Origin: Geothrix oryzae
GTDB lineage: Bacteria > Acidobacteriota > Holophagae > Holophagales > Holophagaceae
Length of the DNA stretch: 64,000 nt
Direction: 5' to 3'
NCBI RefSeq assembly: GCF_030295385.1
Contig: NZ_AP027079.1
Location: 1,116,001-1,180,000, forward strand
Shown piece after piece: positions 3,529 to 55,385 of the stretch. The position numbers and the translations under genes were made by a program. How positions within the stretch are numbered: the first letter of the stretch is position 1; each line of letters starts with the position of its first letter. Under the pieces are notes generated by a model, which was not told where the DNA came from, searched no databases, and worked only from the letters and a program-made list of their open reading frames with translations.

Positions 3529-3726
3529 GCGCGCTTGGACTTCGGACGGCCCTCGATGGCATCTTGAGCCAGGACTGGAAGTTGGCCAAGCTCAATAATT
3601 GGAGATGATTTCATCGCCAATGAAGCGATGGGAAATTCCCATTGATTCAGCGATGAGAATGCCCATGATGGGACCACTTTCCTACGGACTGTGGCCATCC
3701 GAAGGTGGCCCTTTTGCGGAGCCGCC
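3529..3726 (+). promoter_or_regulatory. Leader of the TonB-dependent receptor gene with alternating inverted repeats
   Basis: This 198-bp gap is less GC-rich than its surroundings. It contains a perfect 15-bp palindrome ATGGGAAATTCCCAT at 3628-3642 and a second inverted repeat, CCCATGATGGG, at 3662-3672. The four arms (ATGGG, CCCAT, CCCAT, ATGGG) can pair in alternative ways. A weaker dyad, GGCCATCCGAAGGTGGCC followed by CTTTT, lies at about 3692-3714 just before the start. These could be an operator, an attenuator or both. I see no known riboswitch consensus. Confidence 0.4.
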
Positions 3727-6474
3727 ATGACCGGCCTGCGCTTGCGCTATCTGTCCTTGCTCCTTGCCTCCGGGGCCGTGCTGACGGCTCAGACGACCGG
3801 AGCGCTTCAGGGTCGGGTGCTGGATCCCAAGGGACGGCCCGTGGCCGGGGCGCGGGTGGCCATCGGCGGCCAGGCCCTCCAGGGCGGGCGGACGACGGTG
3901 ACGGACGAATCCGGCGCCTATCGGTTCGGCCTGCTGCCGCCGGGTCCCTGCACGCTTACGGCGACGAAGGAGGGTTTGAACACGGCGAAGGCCCAACTCC
4001 AGGTCGGACTCGACCGCACCTCCACGGTGGACCTGGTTATGAACGCCGTCGCCAGCGCCACCGTCGAAGTGCTCGAAACGAACACCTCTGTCGACCTGAA
4101 GGCCACGACCGTCGGTTCCAACTACACGGCCGAGGCGATTTCAAAGCTCAATGTCTCCAGAGATTTCGCGAACATCGCCCTGCTGGCCCCCGGCGTGAGC
4201 CAGGACAATGCCGGGTTCAAGGTCTATGGCTCCACCGGGGCGGAAAATAGCTTCGTCGTGGATGGCATCAATGCCACGGATGTGGAGTTCGGCACCAAGG
4301 GCAAGAAGGTGCCCATGGAATTCATCCAGGAATTCCAGGTGAAGACGGGCGGATACGAGGCCGAGTACGGCAAGGCCATGGGCGGCATCATCAATGTCAT
4401 CACCAAGTCCGGGGGCAACGAGTTCACCGGCGATGTGTTCGTCTATTCCGAAGGCGCCATCCTCAAGACGGGCAACAAGCACCAGAACGACGGAAACCTG
4501 TCCAAGCCGCTGCTGATCGAGGACAAGACGCTTGAGCTGGGCTTCGATGTGGGCGGGGCCATCATCAAGGACCGGCTCTGGTTCTTCGTCGCCTATGACC
4601 GGCGAAAAGAGAACCAGACCTACGGCATCCGCCTGGGGCCCGAGGCGGGCCAGCACGCTCCGCAGGACTCCACCCGCGATCTCTTCGCAGGCAAGCTCAC
4701 ATGGCGTTTCTCGGAGAGCCAGAGCCTCATCGCCTCCATCGTCGGCGACCCGGAGACCATCACGGGCGCCGTGAAATCTCCCCAGGGCGGCATCGGCACC
4801 TGGGATGGCCAGAACAAGGTGGGCGGCACGGACCTGAGCCTGCGCTACGAGGTCACCGGCGAGCGGTGGTTCGGTCAGCTCCAGGTGAGCCGCCACCAGC
4901 AATCCAGCTCGATCCTGCCCGGCGTGGGCGGCAACCAGATCCAGCTGGTGGACCAGGCGGGCGGGGGCGCCCAGAGCGGCGGTTTCGGCCGCTGGGACGA
5001 CAAGAAGTTCACGCGGGACAACATCACCGGATCCATCACGGGCTTCCTGGGCTCCCACGAGCTGAAGGCCGGATTCGACCTGCAGTCCGACTCGGCGGAC
5101 ATCCGCCGGAGCTTCACGGGCGGTCAGCTGGTGACCCTCCTGGCGGATGACGGCCTGGGCACCGCCACCTCGAAGGTGTACTCGCACTACTGGTGGACCA
5201 CCGCCGCCGGCCAGGTTTCACCGACCTTCGACGCGCCCAGCATCGTCTTCGCCTCCAAGCCCAAGCACGACAGCCAGTCCTTCTTCATCCAGGACAAGTG
5301 GTCGGCCCTGCCGTCCCTGACGGTGAACCTGGGGGCCCGCATCGACCAGACGGACATCAAGGACCAGTTCGGCGCCAAGGTCATCTCGCTGAAGGACGAG
5401 TGGGCGCCCCGCCTGGGCGTGATCTGGGACTTCCGCGGCAAGGGGCAGGACAAGGTCTATGCGAGCTTCTCCCGCTACTTCGAGCAGGTTCCCCTGGATC
5501 TGGTGATCCGCTCCTTCAGTGTCGAGCGGAACCCCACGACCTACAACTTCAGCCCCACCGCCTACGCGTCCGATCCCGCGGCCGAGGCGCTCATTGGCTC
5601 ATCCGCCTCCATCGTGGGGTCCTATGTCGAGCCCGTGGACAGCAACCTCAAGGGGTCGTACACGGATGAGATCATCCTCGGCGCGGAAACCACCTTCCGG
5701 GACCGCTATATCTTCGGCGCCAAGTTCATCCGCCGCTACCTGGGCCGCGCCATCGAGGATGGCCTGGATGTGAACTCCCCCCTCGGCGACTACTTCATCA
5801 TGAACCCCGGCGTCAGCTCCCCGGCAGGCGTCACCTATCCGAAGGCCGTGCGGGACTACAAGGGACTGGAGCTTTCCGCCCAGCGGAAGTTCGCCAACCA
5901 CCACAGCTGGCAGCTCAGCTACCTCTGGAGCCGCCTCGAGGGCAACTACGAGGGGGCCTACCAGGGCATCGGCGGAGCGGATGGCACGGGCCAGCTGGAT
6001 CCCAACATCAACAGCGCCTTCGACCTTCCGGAATTCATCGTGAACAGCTACGGAAAGCTGAGTGGCGACCGCACCCACCAGGTGAAGGCCAACGGCGCCT
6101 ACGAGTGGGATTCCGGGCTCACCCTCGGCCTCTCCTTCACCTACCAGACGGGCACGCCCATCAGCCGCCTGGGCTACCACGACGGCTATGGGCGCTATGA
6201 GCTGTTCCTGGTGGAGCGCGGCACCGAGGGGCGCTCGCCTGACACCGCGCGGCTCGATGTGAACCTGGCCTACACCTTGAAGCTGGCCAACAAACACCGC
6301 CTCCGGTTCGTGGTGGAGGCGACCAACCTGCTGGATTCGCAGACGGCCACGGTCATCGATCAGCGCTACAACTTCGCCCAGGCCGATGTGGGCCAGTCCA
6401 ACCCGAACTACCGGAACCCCTTCTCCTTCCAGGCGCCGCGGTCGATCCGCCTGGGCATCCGCTACAGCTTCTGA
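3727..6474 (+). CDS. TonB-dependent receptor with N-terminal carboxypeptidase-regulatory-like domain (Oar type)
   Basis: The 915-residue protein starts MTGLRLRYLSLLLASGAVLTAQ, a Sec signal peptide. An Ig-like CarboxypepD_reg domain follows (about residues 22-105, GRVLDPKGRPVAGARV). The plug domain is next (about 115-240, with FVVDGINATDVEF and EYGKAMGGIINVITKSGGNEF), then a long beta-barrel ending in RLGIRYSF with a terminal Phe, as expected for an outer-membrane protein. Such receptors use proton-motive energy from TonB-ExbBD to import large substrates. The ligand cannot be told from sequence. An in-frame ATG 12 codons earlier gives a poorer signal peptide, so 3727 was chosen. It stands alone; the nearest TonB-like gene in the window is the fusion near 54-55 kb. 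Confidence 0.9.
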   Translation: MTGLRLRYLSLLLASGAVLTAQTTGALQGRVLDPKGRPVAGARVAIGGQALQGGRTTVTDESGAYRFGLLPPGPCTLTATKEGLNTAKAQLQVGLDRTSTVDLVMNAVASATVEVLETNTSVDLKATTVGSNYTAEAISKLNVSRDFANIALLAPGVSQDNAGFKVYGSTGAENSFVVDGINATDVEFGTKGKKVPMEFIQEFQVKTGGYEAEYGKAMGGIINVITKSGGNEFTGDVFVYSEGAILKTGNKHQNDGNLSKPLLIEDKTLELGFDVGGAIIKDRLWFFVAYDRRKENQTYGIRLGPEAGQHAPQDSTRDLFAGKLTWRFSESQSLIASIVGDPETITGAVKSPQGGIGTWDGQNKVGGTDLSLRYEVTGERWFGQLQVSRHQQSSSILPGVGGNQIQLVDQAGGGAQSGGFGRWDDKKFTRDNITGSITGFLGSHELKAGFDLQSDSADIRRSFTGGQLVTLLADDGLGTATSKVYSHYWWTTAAGQVSPTFDAPSIVFASKPKHDSQSFFIQDKWSALPSLTVNLGARIDQTDIKDQFGAKVISLKDEWAPRLGVIWDFRGKGQDKVYASFSRYFEQVPLDLVIRSFSVERNPTTYNFSPTAYASDPAAEALIGSSASIVGSYVEPVDSNLKGSYTDEIILGAETTFRDRYIFGAKFIRRYLGRAIEDGLDVNSPLGDYFIMNPGVSSPAGVTYPKAVRDYKGLELSAQRKFANHHSWQLSYLWSRLEGNYEGAYQGIGGADGTGQLDPNINSAFDLPEFIVNSYGKLSGDRTHQVKANGAYEWDSGLTLGLSFTYQTGTPISRLGYHDGYGRYELFLVERGTEGRSPDTARLDVNLAYTLKLANKHRLRFVVEATNLLDSQTATVIDQRYNFAQADVGQSNPNYRNPFSFQAPRSIRLGIRYSF

Positions 6475-36649: not shown

Positions 36650-38191
<1,542 letters not shown>

Positions 38192-38240
38192 GGAGAGTCG
38201 CTTTTAGGAGCGACGAAAGGTCAACGCTTCCGATCGAAAT

Positions 38241-38263
38241 TTCTATCCGGTTTTTAAAGACGC
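38241..38263 (+). other. 3' arm of the 16S rRNA processing stem
   Basis: This arm pairs with 36507-36529 across the 16S gene over 23 bases. It lies about 50 bases after the 16S 3' end and before tRNA-Ala, where the RNase III site is expected. Confidence 0.8.
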
Positions 38264-38303
38264 TCGGTCAATCTTTGACGAGCGTGCTTGGGCGTCTGGA
38301 AAC

Positions 38304-38379
38304 GGGCCCGTAGCTCAGCTGGGAGAGCGCCTGGTTTGCATCCAGGAGGTCGTCGGTTCGATCCCGGTCGGGTCCACCA
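38304..38379 (+). tRNA. tRNA-Ala (anticodon TGC)
   Basis: The 76-nt cloverleaf is complete. Acceptor GGGCCCG pairs with CGGGTCC (one G-T), the D arm is GCTC...GAGC, the anticodon stem CCTGG/CCAGG holds loop TTTGCAT, and the T arm has GGTTCGATCCC-like sequence. ACCA is encoded at the 3' end. It lies in the 16S-23S spacer. Confidence 0.97.
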
Positions 38380-38401
38380 ACGCCCGCTGAGGCACAAACT
38401 G

Positions 38402-38479
<78 letters not shown>

Positions 38480-38698
38480 TTTATGCAAGGTTTGAGTTGA
38501 GTTGAGACCTTTCGAGGTTTGAATCCAGCTCAAGGCTGACTCAAGGGTCAGCTGCCGGAAGGCAGAGTTGTTTGACAGTCAAATAGAAGGAATAGAGAAG
38601 GGTGATCCATGGCGTTGAAGTGACGCTGTGGGCTTAAGGCGAGGCAAGTTTAGCGAAATACTCTTAAGGGTCGAAGTCAATGTAATTCATTGATGGAA
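38480..38698 (+). other. tRNA-Ile to 23S spacer with 23S processing-stem 5' arm
   Basis: No gene is present. A small dyad TTTGACAGTCAAA lies at about 38571-38583. The segment 38667-38696, just before 23S, is largely complementary (with G-T pairs and small bulges) to 41636-41667 after 23S. It is the likely RNase III processing stem for pre-23S rRNA. Confidence 0.65.
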
Positions 38699-41635
<2,937 letters not shown>

Positions 41636-41667
41636 TCATCAATCAATTGCATCAACTTCATGACCCT
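41636..41667 (+). other. 3' arm of the 23S rRNA processing stem
   Basis: It pairs with 38667-38696 upstream of 23S through most of its length, with G-T pairs and small bulges. It is placed immediately after the 23S 3' end, as expected for a pre-23S RNase III substrate. Confidence 0.6.
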
Positions 41668-41716
41668 CGAGCGCAACACGCGCCTCGCCCAAATCCCTTC
41701 TCACCCTTCTACCCCT

Positions 41717-41833
41717 TCGTCGTGGCTTTTCCCCAAGGGTCACACCCGTTCCCATCCCGAACACGGCAGTTAAGACTTGGAGGGCCGATGATACTGCTCC
41801 TCACAGGAGTGGAAAAGTAGGTCGCTGCGACGT
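41717..41833 (+). rRNA. rrf: 5S ribosomal RNA
   Basis: The gene is about 117 nt. Terminal helix CGTCGTGGC (41718-41726) pairs with the 3' end (41824-41832) with two G-T pairs. The conserved loop A/B region CCCGTTCCCATCCCGAACACGG is followed by AGTTAAG and a 3' GAAAAGTAGGTCGCTGCGACG. It sits about 80 bases after 23S and ends the rRNA operon. Confidence 0.93.
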
Positions 41834-51377: not shown

Positions 51378-52814
51378 ATGGGGAACCATGCAGGTATGAA
51401 TCCAGCCCGGGCTCTGCTGGTGGACGACGATCCCACCATCCTCGAGGTGGTGGGCACCCTGTTATCCCGCCATGGGCACGAGGTGGTGGGTACCGGCTCG
51501 GGGCTGCGGGGCGCCCAGTGCCTGCGGCGCGAGCACTTCGACCTGGCCGTGGTGGACCTCATGCTGCCGGATCTGAACGGCCTGGAACTGGCCCGTCAGG
51601 CCGTGGCCAACCCCGACACGGTGGTGGTGGTGCTGTCCGGTTCGACTTCCGTCGAGACGGCCCTCCAGGCCATGCGGATGGGCATCTACGACTATGTGCC
51701 CAAGCCCTTCCGGGCTGAGGAACTGGAGCACACGCTCCTGCGGGCCATCGAGAAGTCGCAGCTGAACCAGGAGAACAAGCGGCTCCGCGAGCAGATCCAG
51801 CACAAGGAGCCCGGCCCCCAGATGGTGGGTCGGTCCGAGGCGTGGCAGCACCTCCAGACCCTGCTCCGCCGGCTGGCGCCGTCACCCTCCACGGTGCTCA
51901 TCACCGGGCCTTCGGGGACGGGCAAGGAACTGGCGGCCCGCGCCATCCACCAGTGGAGCCCCCGGGCCCAGGGCCCCTTCGTGGCCATCCACTGCGGGGC
52001 CATTCCGGAGACGCTGCTGGAGGACGAACTCTTCGGCCATGTGCGCGGGGCCTACACGGACGCGCGCACCGACCGCCCGGGGCGTTTCCAGCAGGCGGAG
52101 GGCGGCACCCTCTTTCTGGACGAGATCGGCACCATGCCCCTCAGCCTGCAGGTGAAACTGCTGCGGGTGATCCAGGAGCGGGAGTTCACGCCGCTGGGCT
52201 CGGCGCGCACCGTGAAGGCGGACTTCCGCCTGCTGGCGGCCACCAACGAGGACCTGAGCGCCCTGGTGGTGGAGAAGCGGTTCCGCGAGGACCTCTTCTA
52301 CCGTCTGAATGTGATCCCCGTGCAGCTGCGGCCGCTGCGGGAGCACCGGGACGACATTCCGGTGCTCGTGGCCCACTTCATCCGCAAGTTCGCCCGTGAG
52401 CTGGGTCTGCCGCTGAAGCAGGTCGAGCCCGCTGCCCTGCAGGCCCTGGAAGCCTACGGCTGGCCGGGCAATGTGCGCGAGCTGGAGAATGCCGTGGAGC
52501 GGGCCATGGCGCTGGGCTCCGATCCCGAGCGGATGCTGCTCCAGGATCTTCCCGCGGCCATCGCCGGCATCCTGCCGACGGCGGCCTACCCGCGCCTGCC
52601 GCAGCACCAGGGGCTCGGCCGGTTCCTGGAGGATCTGGAGCGCCACTTGATCCTCGAGGCCCTCCAGGCCACCGGCTGGAACAAGAGCGAATCCGCCCGC
52701 CGGCTCGGCATGCGCCGCACCACCCTGCTGCACCGCCTGAAGGCCCTGGGCATTCCGTTGAACCCCATGGATGAAGCGGAATCGGCCCTGGCCCAGGAGT
52801 CCCACGATGCGTGA
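51378..52814 (+). CDS. Sigma-54-dependent response regulator (NtrC family)
   Basis: The 478-residue protein has a receiver domain ([20 protein letters not shown], phospho-Asp in [11 protein letters not shown], Lys in [15 protein letters not shown]). The AAA+ domain follows, with Walker [14 protein letters not shown], the GAFTGA-equivalent GAYTDA, Walker [11 protein letters not shown] and R fingers in [12 protein letters not shown]. The C-terminal Fis-type helix-turn-helix is [20 protein letters not shown]. It activates RNA polymerase with RpoN after phosphorylation. No histidine kinase gene is adjacent, so its partner is elsewhere. A GGGGG box favours the start at 51378; ATG 51396 is an alternative. 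It may act on promoters such as that proposed for flgH. Confidence 0.92.
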
Positions 52815-53478
52815 TCCGAGAGGCGCGGCACTGTTGCTGCTGCTGTTGGCCTGCGGGCCGCTGAGGGCCTGGTCCCCGAGGGTCCACGAGGCCCAGACGG
52901 CCAAGGCGATCCGGCTGCTGCCCAAACGCATGGCCACGCTGCTGCGGGCCCACCCGCAGGCCCTGCTGGAGGGGGCGCGGGGGGTCGCCAACGACCAGCC
53001 GCCCACGGTGGAAGAGGTGGAGGCCCAGTTCCGCACGATCCTCCGTCTCAGCGAGGAGCGCCGCCGCCCCGAGGACATCGTCCGCGACCTGGGCGTCCTG
53101 GCCCACCTGGTCCAGCTGCTGACGGATCCTTCGGCCAGCGAGGGCATGAGCCCCCTGCGGGAGAGCTTCGAAGCGTACGCCGACGAACACATGGCGCACC
53201 TGCTGGTGACCCAGGAGCCCTACTGGGCGGTGGCCGGCGGCCTGGATCCCGTCCCCGCCCTCCGGCGCTTTCTGGCCACCAAGCAGGAGCGGAATCGGCG
53301 CCTCCGGGAGCATTTCGACGAAAATGCCGGTCGCCGCATCGGCCCCTGGGACGACCTGTCCCTCCCCTTCGCCCAGATGCAGCTGGCTTTTTCCAATGGC
53401 GTCCACGCCACGGCCAACCTTTGGATCCTGGCCTGGCGGGCAGCCGGGGACCAGTGGGAGATTCCGCCCGCGCCCTGA
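52807..53478 (+). CDS. Exported protein related to zinc-dependent phospholipase C / P1 nuclease fold
   Basis: The 223-residue protein has a signal peptide ([21 protein letters not shown]), and the predicted mature N-terminus is WSPRVHE. Trp1 and His6 of the mature chain match the zinc ligands at the N-terminus of P1/S1 nucleases and phospholipase C. VANDQ (Asp62 of the precursor) and GVLAHLVQLLTDPS (His99) recall later ligand motifs, but the usual H-x3-D spacing is broken. It may be a divergent or inactive member. The ATG overlaps the upstream regulator stop, so they are co-transcribed. Confidence 0.6.
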   Translation: MRDPRGAALLLLLLACGPLRAWSPRVHEAQTAKAIRLLPKRMATLLRAHPQALLEGARGVANDQPPTVEEVEAQFRTILRLSEERRRPEDIVRDLGVLAHLVQLLTDPSASEGMSPLRESFEAYADEHMAHLLVTQEPYWAVAGGLDPVPALRRFLATKQERNRRLREHFDENAGRRIGPWDDLSLPFAQMQLAFSNGVHATANLWILAWRAAGDQWEIPPAP

Positions 53479-53564: not shown

Positions 53565-55385
53565 ATGGGCACCTATACGCGCCTCGGGTCCTATCTGCTG
53601 GCCTCAGACCTGGCTAGCGATCCTTTCGGCGCGATCCATCGGGCCGTCGTCATCACCGGCAGCAACTTCGACCGCCACGCCCTGGTGCGGACCTTTTCGG
53701 AGGAGATGTTCCAGGCGGGCATGAACACCCGCCTGTCCGAAGCTGGTCGCGTGGTGCCCCTGCTGGGCGGCGCGCGCATCTACGGGTTAGGCTACCGGGT
53801 GGAGAGCGGCAAGGCGCCGCATGTGGCTTGGGACTATGTGCCCGGCCGAAGCCTCGCGCAGCTCATCGAGAAGGCCCGGCAGGAGCAGATCCCCTTCGGC
53901 GTCGATCACGCCCTCACGGTGATCCAGGGCGTGGCCCAGGGCATCGTGCAGATGCAGGCCAAGGGCGCCAGCCACGGCGTGCTGAGCCCGCACAGCGTGT
54001 GGGTGAGCTTCGAAGGCGCCACCCAGATCGTGGATGCCCCCTATGCCGCTCTGGCCAAGAGCATGCTGGCCAAGGCCCCCACGGCGAAGCGCAAGCTCGC
54101 GCCCTACCTCCAGGGCCCCGAGAACGACGCCCTCCAGCAGGATCTGTTCGCGCTGGGTGCCGTGCTCTACGAGCTGCTCACCTTCGAGCAGCTGCCCCTC
54201 GGCGGCGACTTCCAGACCCTCCTGGACAAGGCCACGCTCAAGGCCGCGCAGGAGGAGGCCCCCCTGCCCGCGGAGATCCGCGCCTTCCTCGGCCGCCTGC
54301 TGCTGGGCCGCCAGCCCTTCGCCACGGTGGAGGCCTTCAACGCCGAGCTGGAGCGGGTGCTCTACGACGGCGAGTACAGCCCCACCACCTTCAACATGGC
54401 TTTCTTCATGCACACGCTGTTCCGGGAGGAGAACGACCGGGACGCGCTGGCCATGAAGGCGGAACAGGGGGACAACTACCTGGCCTACACCGCCGCCGGC
54501 GAAACCCTGCGCAGCGGCGCCACCCGCGTGGAGCACATCGACGGCCACGCGGCGGAGGAAGCCAACCAGAAGAACAAGACGCTCCTCATCGGCGGCGGCC
54601 TGGCCGCGGTGGTGATCCTGGGCCTGGGCTACATCCTCTTCGGCCGCCCCAAGGTCGATCCGGCCATGCAGAAGCAGCTGGCGGAGCTCCAGCTCCTGAA
54701 GGTGCAGATCGAACAGCAGAAATCCGACCTCGATGCCAAGGCCAAGGCCGAGACCGAGAAGACCGCCCAGCTCCAGAAGCAGCTGAGCGAGACCAAGTCC
54801 GTGGAAGAGAAGGCCCGGATCCAAAAGCAGCTGGACGAGGCCCAGGCCCGCAAGCTCGAAGTGGAGCGGCAGCAGAGGCTGGCCGAGCAGAAGCTGGCCG
54901 AGCAGAAGGCGGCCGAGCAGAAGCTGGCCGAGCAGAAGAAGGCCGCCGAGACCAAGGTGGCCGCCGCCCCGCCCGCGCCGGAGCCGCCCAAGCCCCAGCC
55001 CATGCAGGAGGCCCAGCGGCCCGCCGCCGTGCCCACCCAGGTCCCCACGCCCCAGACCGCCGCGCCCCAGACCATGGCCCCGGCCGTCAACAACGACCAG
55101 CCAGCCCGCGTGACCAGCCAGATCGCGCCGGCCTTCCCCCTCCGGGCCGTTCAGATGCGCTGGGAGACCAACCTCGACCACTTCGTGCGGCTGAAGGTGT
55201 TCGTGAGCGAACAGGGCCATCCCCTGAAGGTATCCGTGATCGAGGGCGTGTCCGGTTCCTACGGGTTCGACGAGGCGGCCATCGAGGCAGCCAACAAATC
55301 CTCGTTCAGCCCCGCCGTCCGCGACGGCAAGCCCGTCCGAGGCTGGACGCCCGAGATCGTCTACAAGTTCCCCAAGCGGAGGTAG
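53565..55385 (+). CDS. Pseudokinase-TonB fusion protein
   Basis: The 606-residue protein has four parts. Residues 1-270 resemble a Ser/Thr kinase fold, with hinge HVAWDYVPGRSLAQLIEKA and helix F region DLFALGAVLYELLTFEQLPL. The catalytic loop reads ASHGVLSPHSVWV in place of HRDLKPxN, and DFG is replaced by VDAP, so it should be inactive. Residues 337-360 are a membrane helix. Residues 365-465 are a charged coiled coil with AEQKLAEQKAAEQK repeats, followed by a Pro/Ala-rich stretch. Residues 515-606 are a TonB C-terminal domain (HPLKVSVIEGVSGSYGFDEA, AANKSSFSPAVRDGKPVRGW). It probably energises an outer-membrane receptor while sensing something in the cytoplasm. TGGAGAAAG precedes the ATG. Confidence 0.85.
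   Translation: MGTYTRLGSYLLASDLASDPFGAIHRAVVITGSNFDRHALVRTFSEEMFQAGMNTRLSEAGRVVPLLGGARIYGLGYRVESGKAPHVAWDYVPGRSLAQLIEKARQEQIPFGVDHALTVIQGVAQGIVQMQAKGASHGVLSPHSVWVSFEGATQIVDAPYAALAKSMLAKAPTAKRKLAPYLQGPENDALQQDLFALGAVLYELLTFEQLPLGGDFQTLLDKATLKAAQEEAPLPAEIRAFLGRLLLGRQPFATVEAFNAELERVLYDGEYSPTTFNMAFFMHTLFREENDRDALAMKAEQGDNYLAYTAAGETLRSGATRVEHIDGHAAEEANQKNKTLLIGGGLAAVVILGLGYILFGRPKVDPAMQKQLAELQLLKVQIEQQKSDLDAKAKAETEKTAQLQKQLSETKSVEEKARIQKQLDEAQARKLEVERQQRLAEQKLAEQKAAEQKLAEQKKAAETKVAAAPPAPEPPKPQPMQEAQRPAAVPTQVPTPQTAAPQTMAPAVNNDQPARVTSQIAPAFPLRAVQMRWETNLDHFVRLKVFVSEQGHPLKVSVIEGVSGSYGFDEAAIEAANKSSFSPAVRDGKPVRGWTPEIVYKFPKRR

Follow-up and report, generated by a model that had tools for sequence, protein, structure and literature searches.

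A pseudokinase joined to a TonB C-terminal domain in a membrane protein of Acidobacteriota, and its sister family of kinases with intact motifs

The gene at positions 53565..55385 (+) of the window, as we call the whole 64,000-nucleotide stretch of Geothrix oryzae DNA analysed here, encodes one 606-aa chain in which a kinase-like region, a single membrane helix, a helix of about 100 residues and a TonB_C domain follow one another, just as a sequence-only reading of this DNA had described. By computation, we find this architecture, a kinase fold and the loss of catalytic residues in a family spread over the Acidobacteriota, together with a sister family that retains its kinase motifs and largely occurs in the same genomes. 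We propose, with a probability of roughly one half, that the pseudokinase is the regulatory or sensing half of a receptor pair with an active kinase, and that TonB_C serves as its periplasmic docking domain. The chain and the ORF upstream of it are made up as follows:

53565..55385 (+): whole gene with ATG start; pseudokinase, membrane helix, long helix, Pro-rich linker and TonB_C in 606 aa
53565..54362 (+): pseudokinase domain, about residues 1-266 (Pfam, PDB sequence search, AlphaFold2, Foldseek, VIA-align 2, residue census)
54366..54464 (+): juxtamembrane segment, residues 268-300, DGEYSPTTFNMAFFMHTLFREENDRDALAMKAE, containing the family's best-conserved 15-mer (273-287)
54576..54641 (+): single membrane helix, about residues 338-359, without His and without S-x3-H (hydropathy)
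54660..54953 (+): predicted long alpha-helix, probably a coiled coil, residues 366-463 (AlphaFold2 model)
54954..55100 (+): Pro/Ala-rich linker of low model confidence, residues 464-512 (AlphaFold2 model, sequence)
55101..55382 (+): TonB_C domain, residues 513-606 (Pfam; pLDDT about 95)
52771..53478 (+): upstream ORF of 235 aa, separated from the gene by 86 bp; its N-terminus is signal-like, and no Pfam family scores above its cut-off

At the C-terminal end, Pfam recognises TonB_C (PF03544) in residues 522-595 (4.4e-11, 43.5 bits against a cut-off of 24.6). The kinase-like match to PF07714 in residues 1-270 has an E-value of 1.4e-4 and remains under the curated cut-off, and the scores for NCBIfam MAD6 and PknB_PASTA are far under theirs. 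Across 49 members of the family, TonB_C is found in 44 and Pkinase in 40 at E <= 0.001. The sequence-only reading had allowed for an assembly join of two genes. Such a join, or a chance product, is ruled out because collinear full-length orthologues, in other taxonomic families and down to about 28% identity, span the phylum; they also answer its call to look for the same architecture in other acidobacteria.

The N-terminal region is predicted to form a bilobal protein-kinase fold, because sequence matches, the AlphaFold2 model and structure searches all lead to kinases. Searched against the PDB, the window protein finds PknB as the best match (3.8e-6), and a profile of the aligned kinase region retrieves StkP there (3.5e-36). 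The AlphaFold2 model, built on 49 aligned rows picked as a spread sample, has a mean pLDDT of 80.7, with values mostly of about 90 in the kinase region up to about residue 266 (61-66 at residues 61-80) and of about 95 in TonB_C (515-606); the helices after the kinase domain comprise residues 275-285, 287-301, 366-409 and 413-463, the linker has low confidence, and the membrane segment lies within a low-confidence stretch. The best Foldseek matches of this model are kinases, with PknA first and PknB among the top rows, and VIA-align 2 on the Foldseek top 1000 yields Z values of 22.0-23.0 and rmsd values of 2.6-3.5 over 236-261 residues among the 50 rows listed. The kinase-like character assigned to residues 1-270 from the letters is thereby borne out by structure prediction and fold search.

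The catalytic residues of this fold are largely replaced. In the window protein, R42 stands at the VAIK lysine, H137-G-V-L-S-P142 at HRDLKP and D157-A-P at DFG, and the alpha-F aspartate D193 is retained. Both HRD and DFG had been read as replaced; HRD is indeed gone (H137-G138-V139), but the "VDAP" sequence keeps the DFG aspartate, D157, and only its F and G are changed. An active Ser/Thr kinase has VAIK Lys, HRD Asp and DFG Asp, and the corresponding residues of the window protein are R42, V139 and D157; the protein is thus a pseudokinase as defined in the relevant section of PMC12599244, where the absence of at least one of the three suffices. For a residue census (n=80), the window protein and 79 of 80 fetched loci (L098 left out), these being the best 80 of 149 relatives, were aligned with kinases encoded in the same genome as the window protein. 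None of the 80 homologues has Asp at the HRD aspartate, where Phe, Val and Leu predominate, and the loss of the catalytic aspartate is therefore family-wide and no local accident. The VAIK lysine position holds Lys in 3/80 and Arg, as in the window, in 45/80; the DFG aspartate position holds Asp in 33/80 (window included) and Gly in 35/80; the first glycine of the glycine loop is Gly in 6/80. The HRD histidine (75/80), the proline (79/80) and the alpha-F aspartate (78/80) are retained. Judged from these alignments, the family appears to have kept the kinase fold and to have lost the catalytic residues throughout.

The best-conserved stretch of the family lies past the kinase lobe and ahead of the membrane helix, at residues 273-287 (PTTFNMAFFMHTLFR in the window, consensus SPTTFNLAFFMHSLFR), and is an addition to the sequence-only reading, from whose description it was absent. 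This 15-mer reaches 3.9 bits, with means of 1.7 for the N-lobe, 1.8 for the C-lobe and 1.7 for TonB_C (weighted relative entropy); these values and the membrane-helix counts given below refer to 76 rows, window included, with L098, L101, L108, L118 and L147 left out. Searching genome contigs for TFN[LM]A[FY][FYL]M returned 179 stretches, of which 149 are relatives; the best 80 of these are mostly labelled as acidobacterial. One relative (L153) is labelled Chrysiogenales. Another (L090), labelled "Deltaproteobacteria", is no evidence for spread outside the phylum, because its match is identical in contig number, coordinates and score to that in G377, a genome of the same phylum.

A 47-position model of the juxtamembrane motif, searched in 395 near-complete Acidobacteriota genomes, matches 124 of them, in 70 of 212 genera, with a single match in 118 of the 124. 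In the organism's own class 51 of 55 genomes have a match, and one of the other four (G043) carries, at the edge of a contig, a fragment with the TonB end. The pseudokinase-TonB_C chain is thus widely spread in the Acidobacteriota, and few genomes of its own class lack it. The gene may be tandemly duplicated in G241, where the pseudokinase model matches contig 60 at 1543-2487 and again, about 2 kb away, at 3648-4616. The surroundings of the gene are variable: among 34 clustered loci no neighbour is common to all taxonomic families, and in four loci read by eye the neighbours are mostly housekeeping genes (ATP synthase, HIT, PlsY/GpsA, RecJ). A relative of the upstream 235-aa ORF lies near the gene in 7 of the 34 loci, window included, and the two genes possibly belong to the same operon. 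The window also contains a complete rRNA operon (36650-41833: 16S, two tRNAs, 23S, 5S).

The next-best relatives in the phylum include a sister family of kinases, about 900-1100 aa long, that have VAIK, HRD[VI]SPQN, DFG, a membrane helix and TonB_C. The TonB_C end is present in 18 of the 19 sister loci first examined (L207 is cut by the contig end; L209 has no VAIK pattern match), and L221 and L225 are two further fusions, giving L194-L196, L198-L206, L208-L213, L221 and L225 as active kinase-TM-TonB_C loci. These proteins resemble the pseudokinase in layout and in the position of the juxtamembrane segment, where a segment PTxADLAxYMHRL (several loci, by eye) follows the kinase domain in place of the pseudokinase motif; they differ in their intact catalytic motifs, in an extra N-terminal part and in lacking the SPTTFN motif. 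Pfam finds a receiver domain in this N-terminal part in L195, L196 and L225, and none in L205, L221 or L194, the last read from an internal start. Against the TonB_C model of the pseudokinases, the active fusions score 51-98 bits and other TonB_C proteins 23-63 bits, ranges that overlap. As the closest relatives found for the whole architecture are kinases with intact motifs, the comparison points to signalling. By eye, accD-like ORFs adjoin the active kinase in 9/24 loci and yebC-like ORFs in 8/24 (among L198-L213 and L221).

In a tree of 57 kinase domains, which is unrooted (root for drawing only) and has long pseudokinase branches that were flagged, the pseudokinases lie on one side of a branch with 100/100 support and 12 other kinases are set off by another (100/100). 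The active TonB_C kinases do not form one group, and three active kinases of Holophagaceae without TonB_C (L002, L220 and L224) nest beside L194-L196 (100/97). L002, from the genome of the window (contig 1, 2259643-2260539), retains its kinase motifs and stops just past the membrane helix; Pfam detects neither a receiver nor TonB_C in it, and the genome's seven TonB_C matches all lie elsewhere. All three active kinases read from Holophagaceae stop after the membrane helix, and TonB_C is left on the pseudokinase only, which would therefore be the sole arm of the pair into the periplasm.

The two families occur together. With the active family scored as present at E <= 1e-75, it is found in 124 of the 395 genomes: 113 genomes have both families, 11 the pseudokinase alone, 11 the active kinase alone and 260 neither. 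This cut admits four weaker genomes (1e-93 to 1e-100), and the overlap without them is 112; with a stricter active cut, 26 taxonomic families have both, 2 the pseudokinase only and 4 the active kinase only. Several mismatch genomes are assemblies of hundreds of contigs, but the active kinase stands alone in four genomes of one family (f18), and the pseudokinase alone in G199 (99% complete, 60 contigs) and G399 (98% complete, 70 contigs). The Fisher p of about 1e-71 is a raw value that ignores relatedness. On the best RpoB tree of 30 hand-picked genomes, pseudokinase presence needs 9 changes, and the only 3 supported independent contrasts are all concordant, an underpowered comparison (p 0.25). 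The co-occurrence may be largely shared ancestry, and co-inheritance of the two genes is suggestive; no gene linkage was seen between the families. Genomes with the pseudokinase seldom lack a relative whose kinase motifs are intact, and this pattern suggests a signalling receptor in two parts and not a motor for nutrient import.

Based on these features, we propose the following hypothetical scheme, in which (i) the pseudokinase would be paralogous to receptor Ser/Thr kinases that retain their motifs and run from an N-terminal part (receiver in some) through kinase, membrane helix and linker to TonB_C; (ii) the dead kinase domain, to judge from topology, would lie in the cytoplasm, and the strongly conserved juxtamembrane helix would link it to the membrane helix; (iii) the long periplasmic helix and the Pro-rich linker would let TonB_C extend in the direction of the outer membrane or cell wall, where it would dock a partner strand in the periplasm; (iv) the juxtamembrane helix and the pseudokinase would relay docking to the catalytic partner. 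Here we infer the pairing itself, the ligand and the direction of the signal, as well as a derivation of the inactive from the active proteins.

Receptor Ser/Thr kinases of the PknB/StkP type consist of a cytoplasmic kinase, a juxtamembrane segment, one membrane helix and an extracytoplasmic domain (PASTA). They are the best bacterial sequence matches of the window protein and share with it the kinase fold, the juxtamembrane segment and the single membrane helix; the window protein differs by its lost catalytic residues and by having TonB_C where those kinases have PASTA or another sensor. With the force transducers TonB and TolA it has in common the membrane helix, the long periplasmic linker and TonB_C, and it differs from them by the large cytoplasmic domain, a membrane helix without S-x3-H and the absence of any ExbBD linkage that we could see. 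The bacterial pseudokinases MviN (ActPs3), EssB/YukC, ActPs1-3, GLW, CP1, DYD and DLHK likewise combine a kinase fold with lost motifs, several of them beside a membrane helix; as far as they are described in the 2025 review of bacterial pseudokinases (PMC12599244), they belong to other taxa and have other motifs, and the main text of that review mentions neither "TonB" nor "Acidobacteri".

A structural tether or scaffold, in which the dead-kinase head would bring cytoplasmic partners to the membrane and TonB_C would anchor to the cell wall or outer membrane with no regulated kinase partner, appears rather unlikely to us. The long helix and Pro-rich linker of the model would suit it, and it has precedents: in the sections of PMC8262864 concerned, SjdR is a TonB-like protein with a role other than siderophore transport, built of a cytoplasmic part, a membrane helix and a periplasmic Pro-rich part, and GltJ of GltJ/AgmX has a TonB-like C-terminus, with no kinase domain named there for either system, and PMC12599244 presents EssB/YukC as a pseudokinase of the membrane with a role in recruiting secretion machinery. 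However, neither the almost one-to-one occurrence with an active kinase nor an architecture common to both families would be expected of a tether.

The sequence-only reading had instead taken the protein for a TonB energiser, in which the pseudokinase could control the passage of energy to outer-membrane receptors such as the one at 3.7-6.5 kb, with ExbBD as the usual partner of TonB. This reading is weakened, and we consider it improbable, even though TonB_C is intact. TonB and TolA bind their motor via the SHLS motif of the membrane helix, as described in passages of PMC12204202, and TonB contacts ExbD via the D-box, as described in passages of PMC10907165. Among the 76 members, neither S-x3-H nor a core His occurs in any membrane helix, and [ST]-x3-[HY] occurs in two, versus 9/19 usable conventional TonB_C ORFs of the class (all with Tyr, some near-copies). 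The S-x3-H test nevertheless says little, because none of these 19 ORFs shows S-x3-H either. They are the usable short ORFs from 34 TonB_C loci, 15 being left out (long ORF, wrong frame or not found); by eye, some of the loci left out have His in the membrane helix, L157 and L178 have S-x3-Y just beyond the stretch counted, in addition to the nine, and the TolA-like protein of the own genome has S-x3-H.

Linkage to exbB/exbD is not universal among known TonB genes. With four ExbB/ExbD queries, no homologue was found in any of 114 pseudokinase loci (the whole window and stretches of about 3 to 18 kb, some genomes represented twice), which for the 64-kb window agrees with the earlier remark that no exbB or exbD is near; the own genome has its further TonB_C matches and three ExbD matches elsewhere. 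Three near-complete genomes of the same taxonomic family without a motif match (G046, G052 and G060) retain 7, 6 and 6 matches to the Plug domain of TonB receptors, the other four genomes in the same comparison having 3, 10, 10 and 4, and the pseudokinase is therefore not needed for keeping TonB-dependent receptors. On the energiser's side, an exbB homologue lies beside 4/23 active-sister loci (L199, L201, L205 and L221), with exbD too in L199, L205 and L221; in L205, exbB/exbD and then a TonB-like ORF are divergent from the kinase (by eye). The active kinase may thus have a link to the Ton machinery. Nothing ties the receptor in the window to the pseudokinase. Located at 3691-6474, that receptor has CarboxypepD_reg, Plug and beta-barrel matches in Pfam.

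The least probable reading is that the protein acts as a nucleotide-binding switch or catalyses a non-canonical reaction. R42 and D157 would fit it, as would the Lys-to-Arg change of ActPs2 pseudokinases, for which a section of PMC12599244 suggests another ligand-binding mode; against it, the catalytic-loop Asp is absent from all 80 homologues, the DFG position is Gly in 35 and the first loop glycine persists in 6.

In summary, we favour the receptor pair, in which a dead and an apparently live kinase, widely conserved, usually single-copy and mostly carrying TonB_C, would act together. Most of the receptor kinases known from bacteria have a ligand-binding domain, PASTA for example. In the open-licence part of PubMed Central we found no published description of a protein with both a kinase and TonB_C, and one may exist elsewhere. 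Other TonB_C fusions of the same class comprise, by eye, M56-type peptidase-like regions (L181, L183 with TonB_C twice, and L191) and anti-sigma-like zinc-finger regions (L173 and L197). More speculatively, and in our estimate unlikely, acidobacteria would use trans-envelope phospho-signalling, in which TonB_C reads the state of an outer-membrane (TonB-box) protein and the pseudokinase/kinase pair converts it into cytoplasmic Ser/Thr phosphorylation, without an ExbBD motor. The pair would imply that TonB_C, known for force transfer, is also a sensor or docking module, and would offer a bacterial model for the regulation of a kinase by a pseudokinase.
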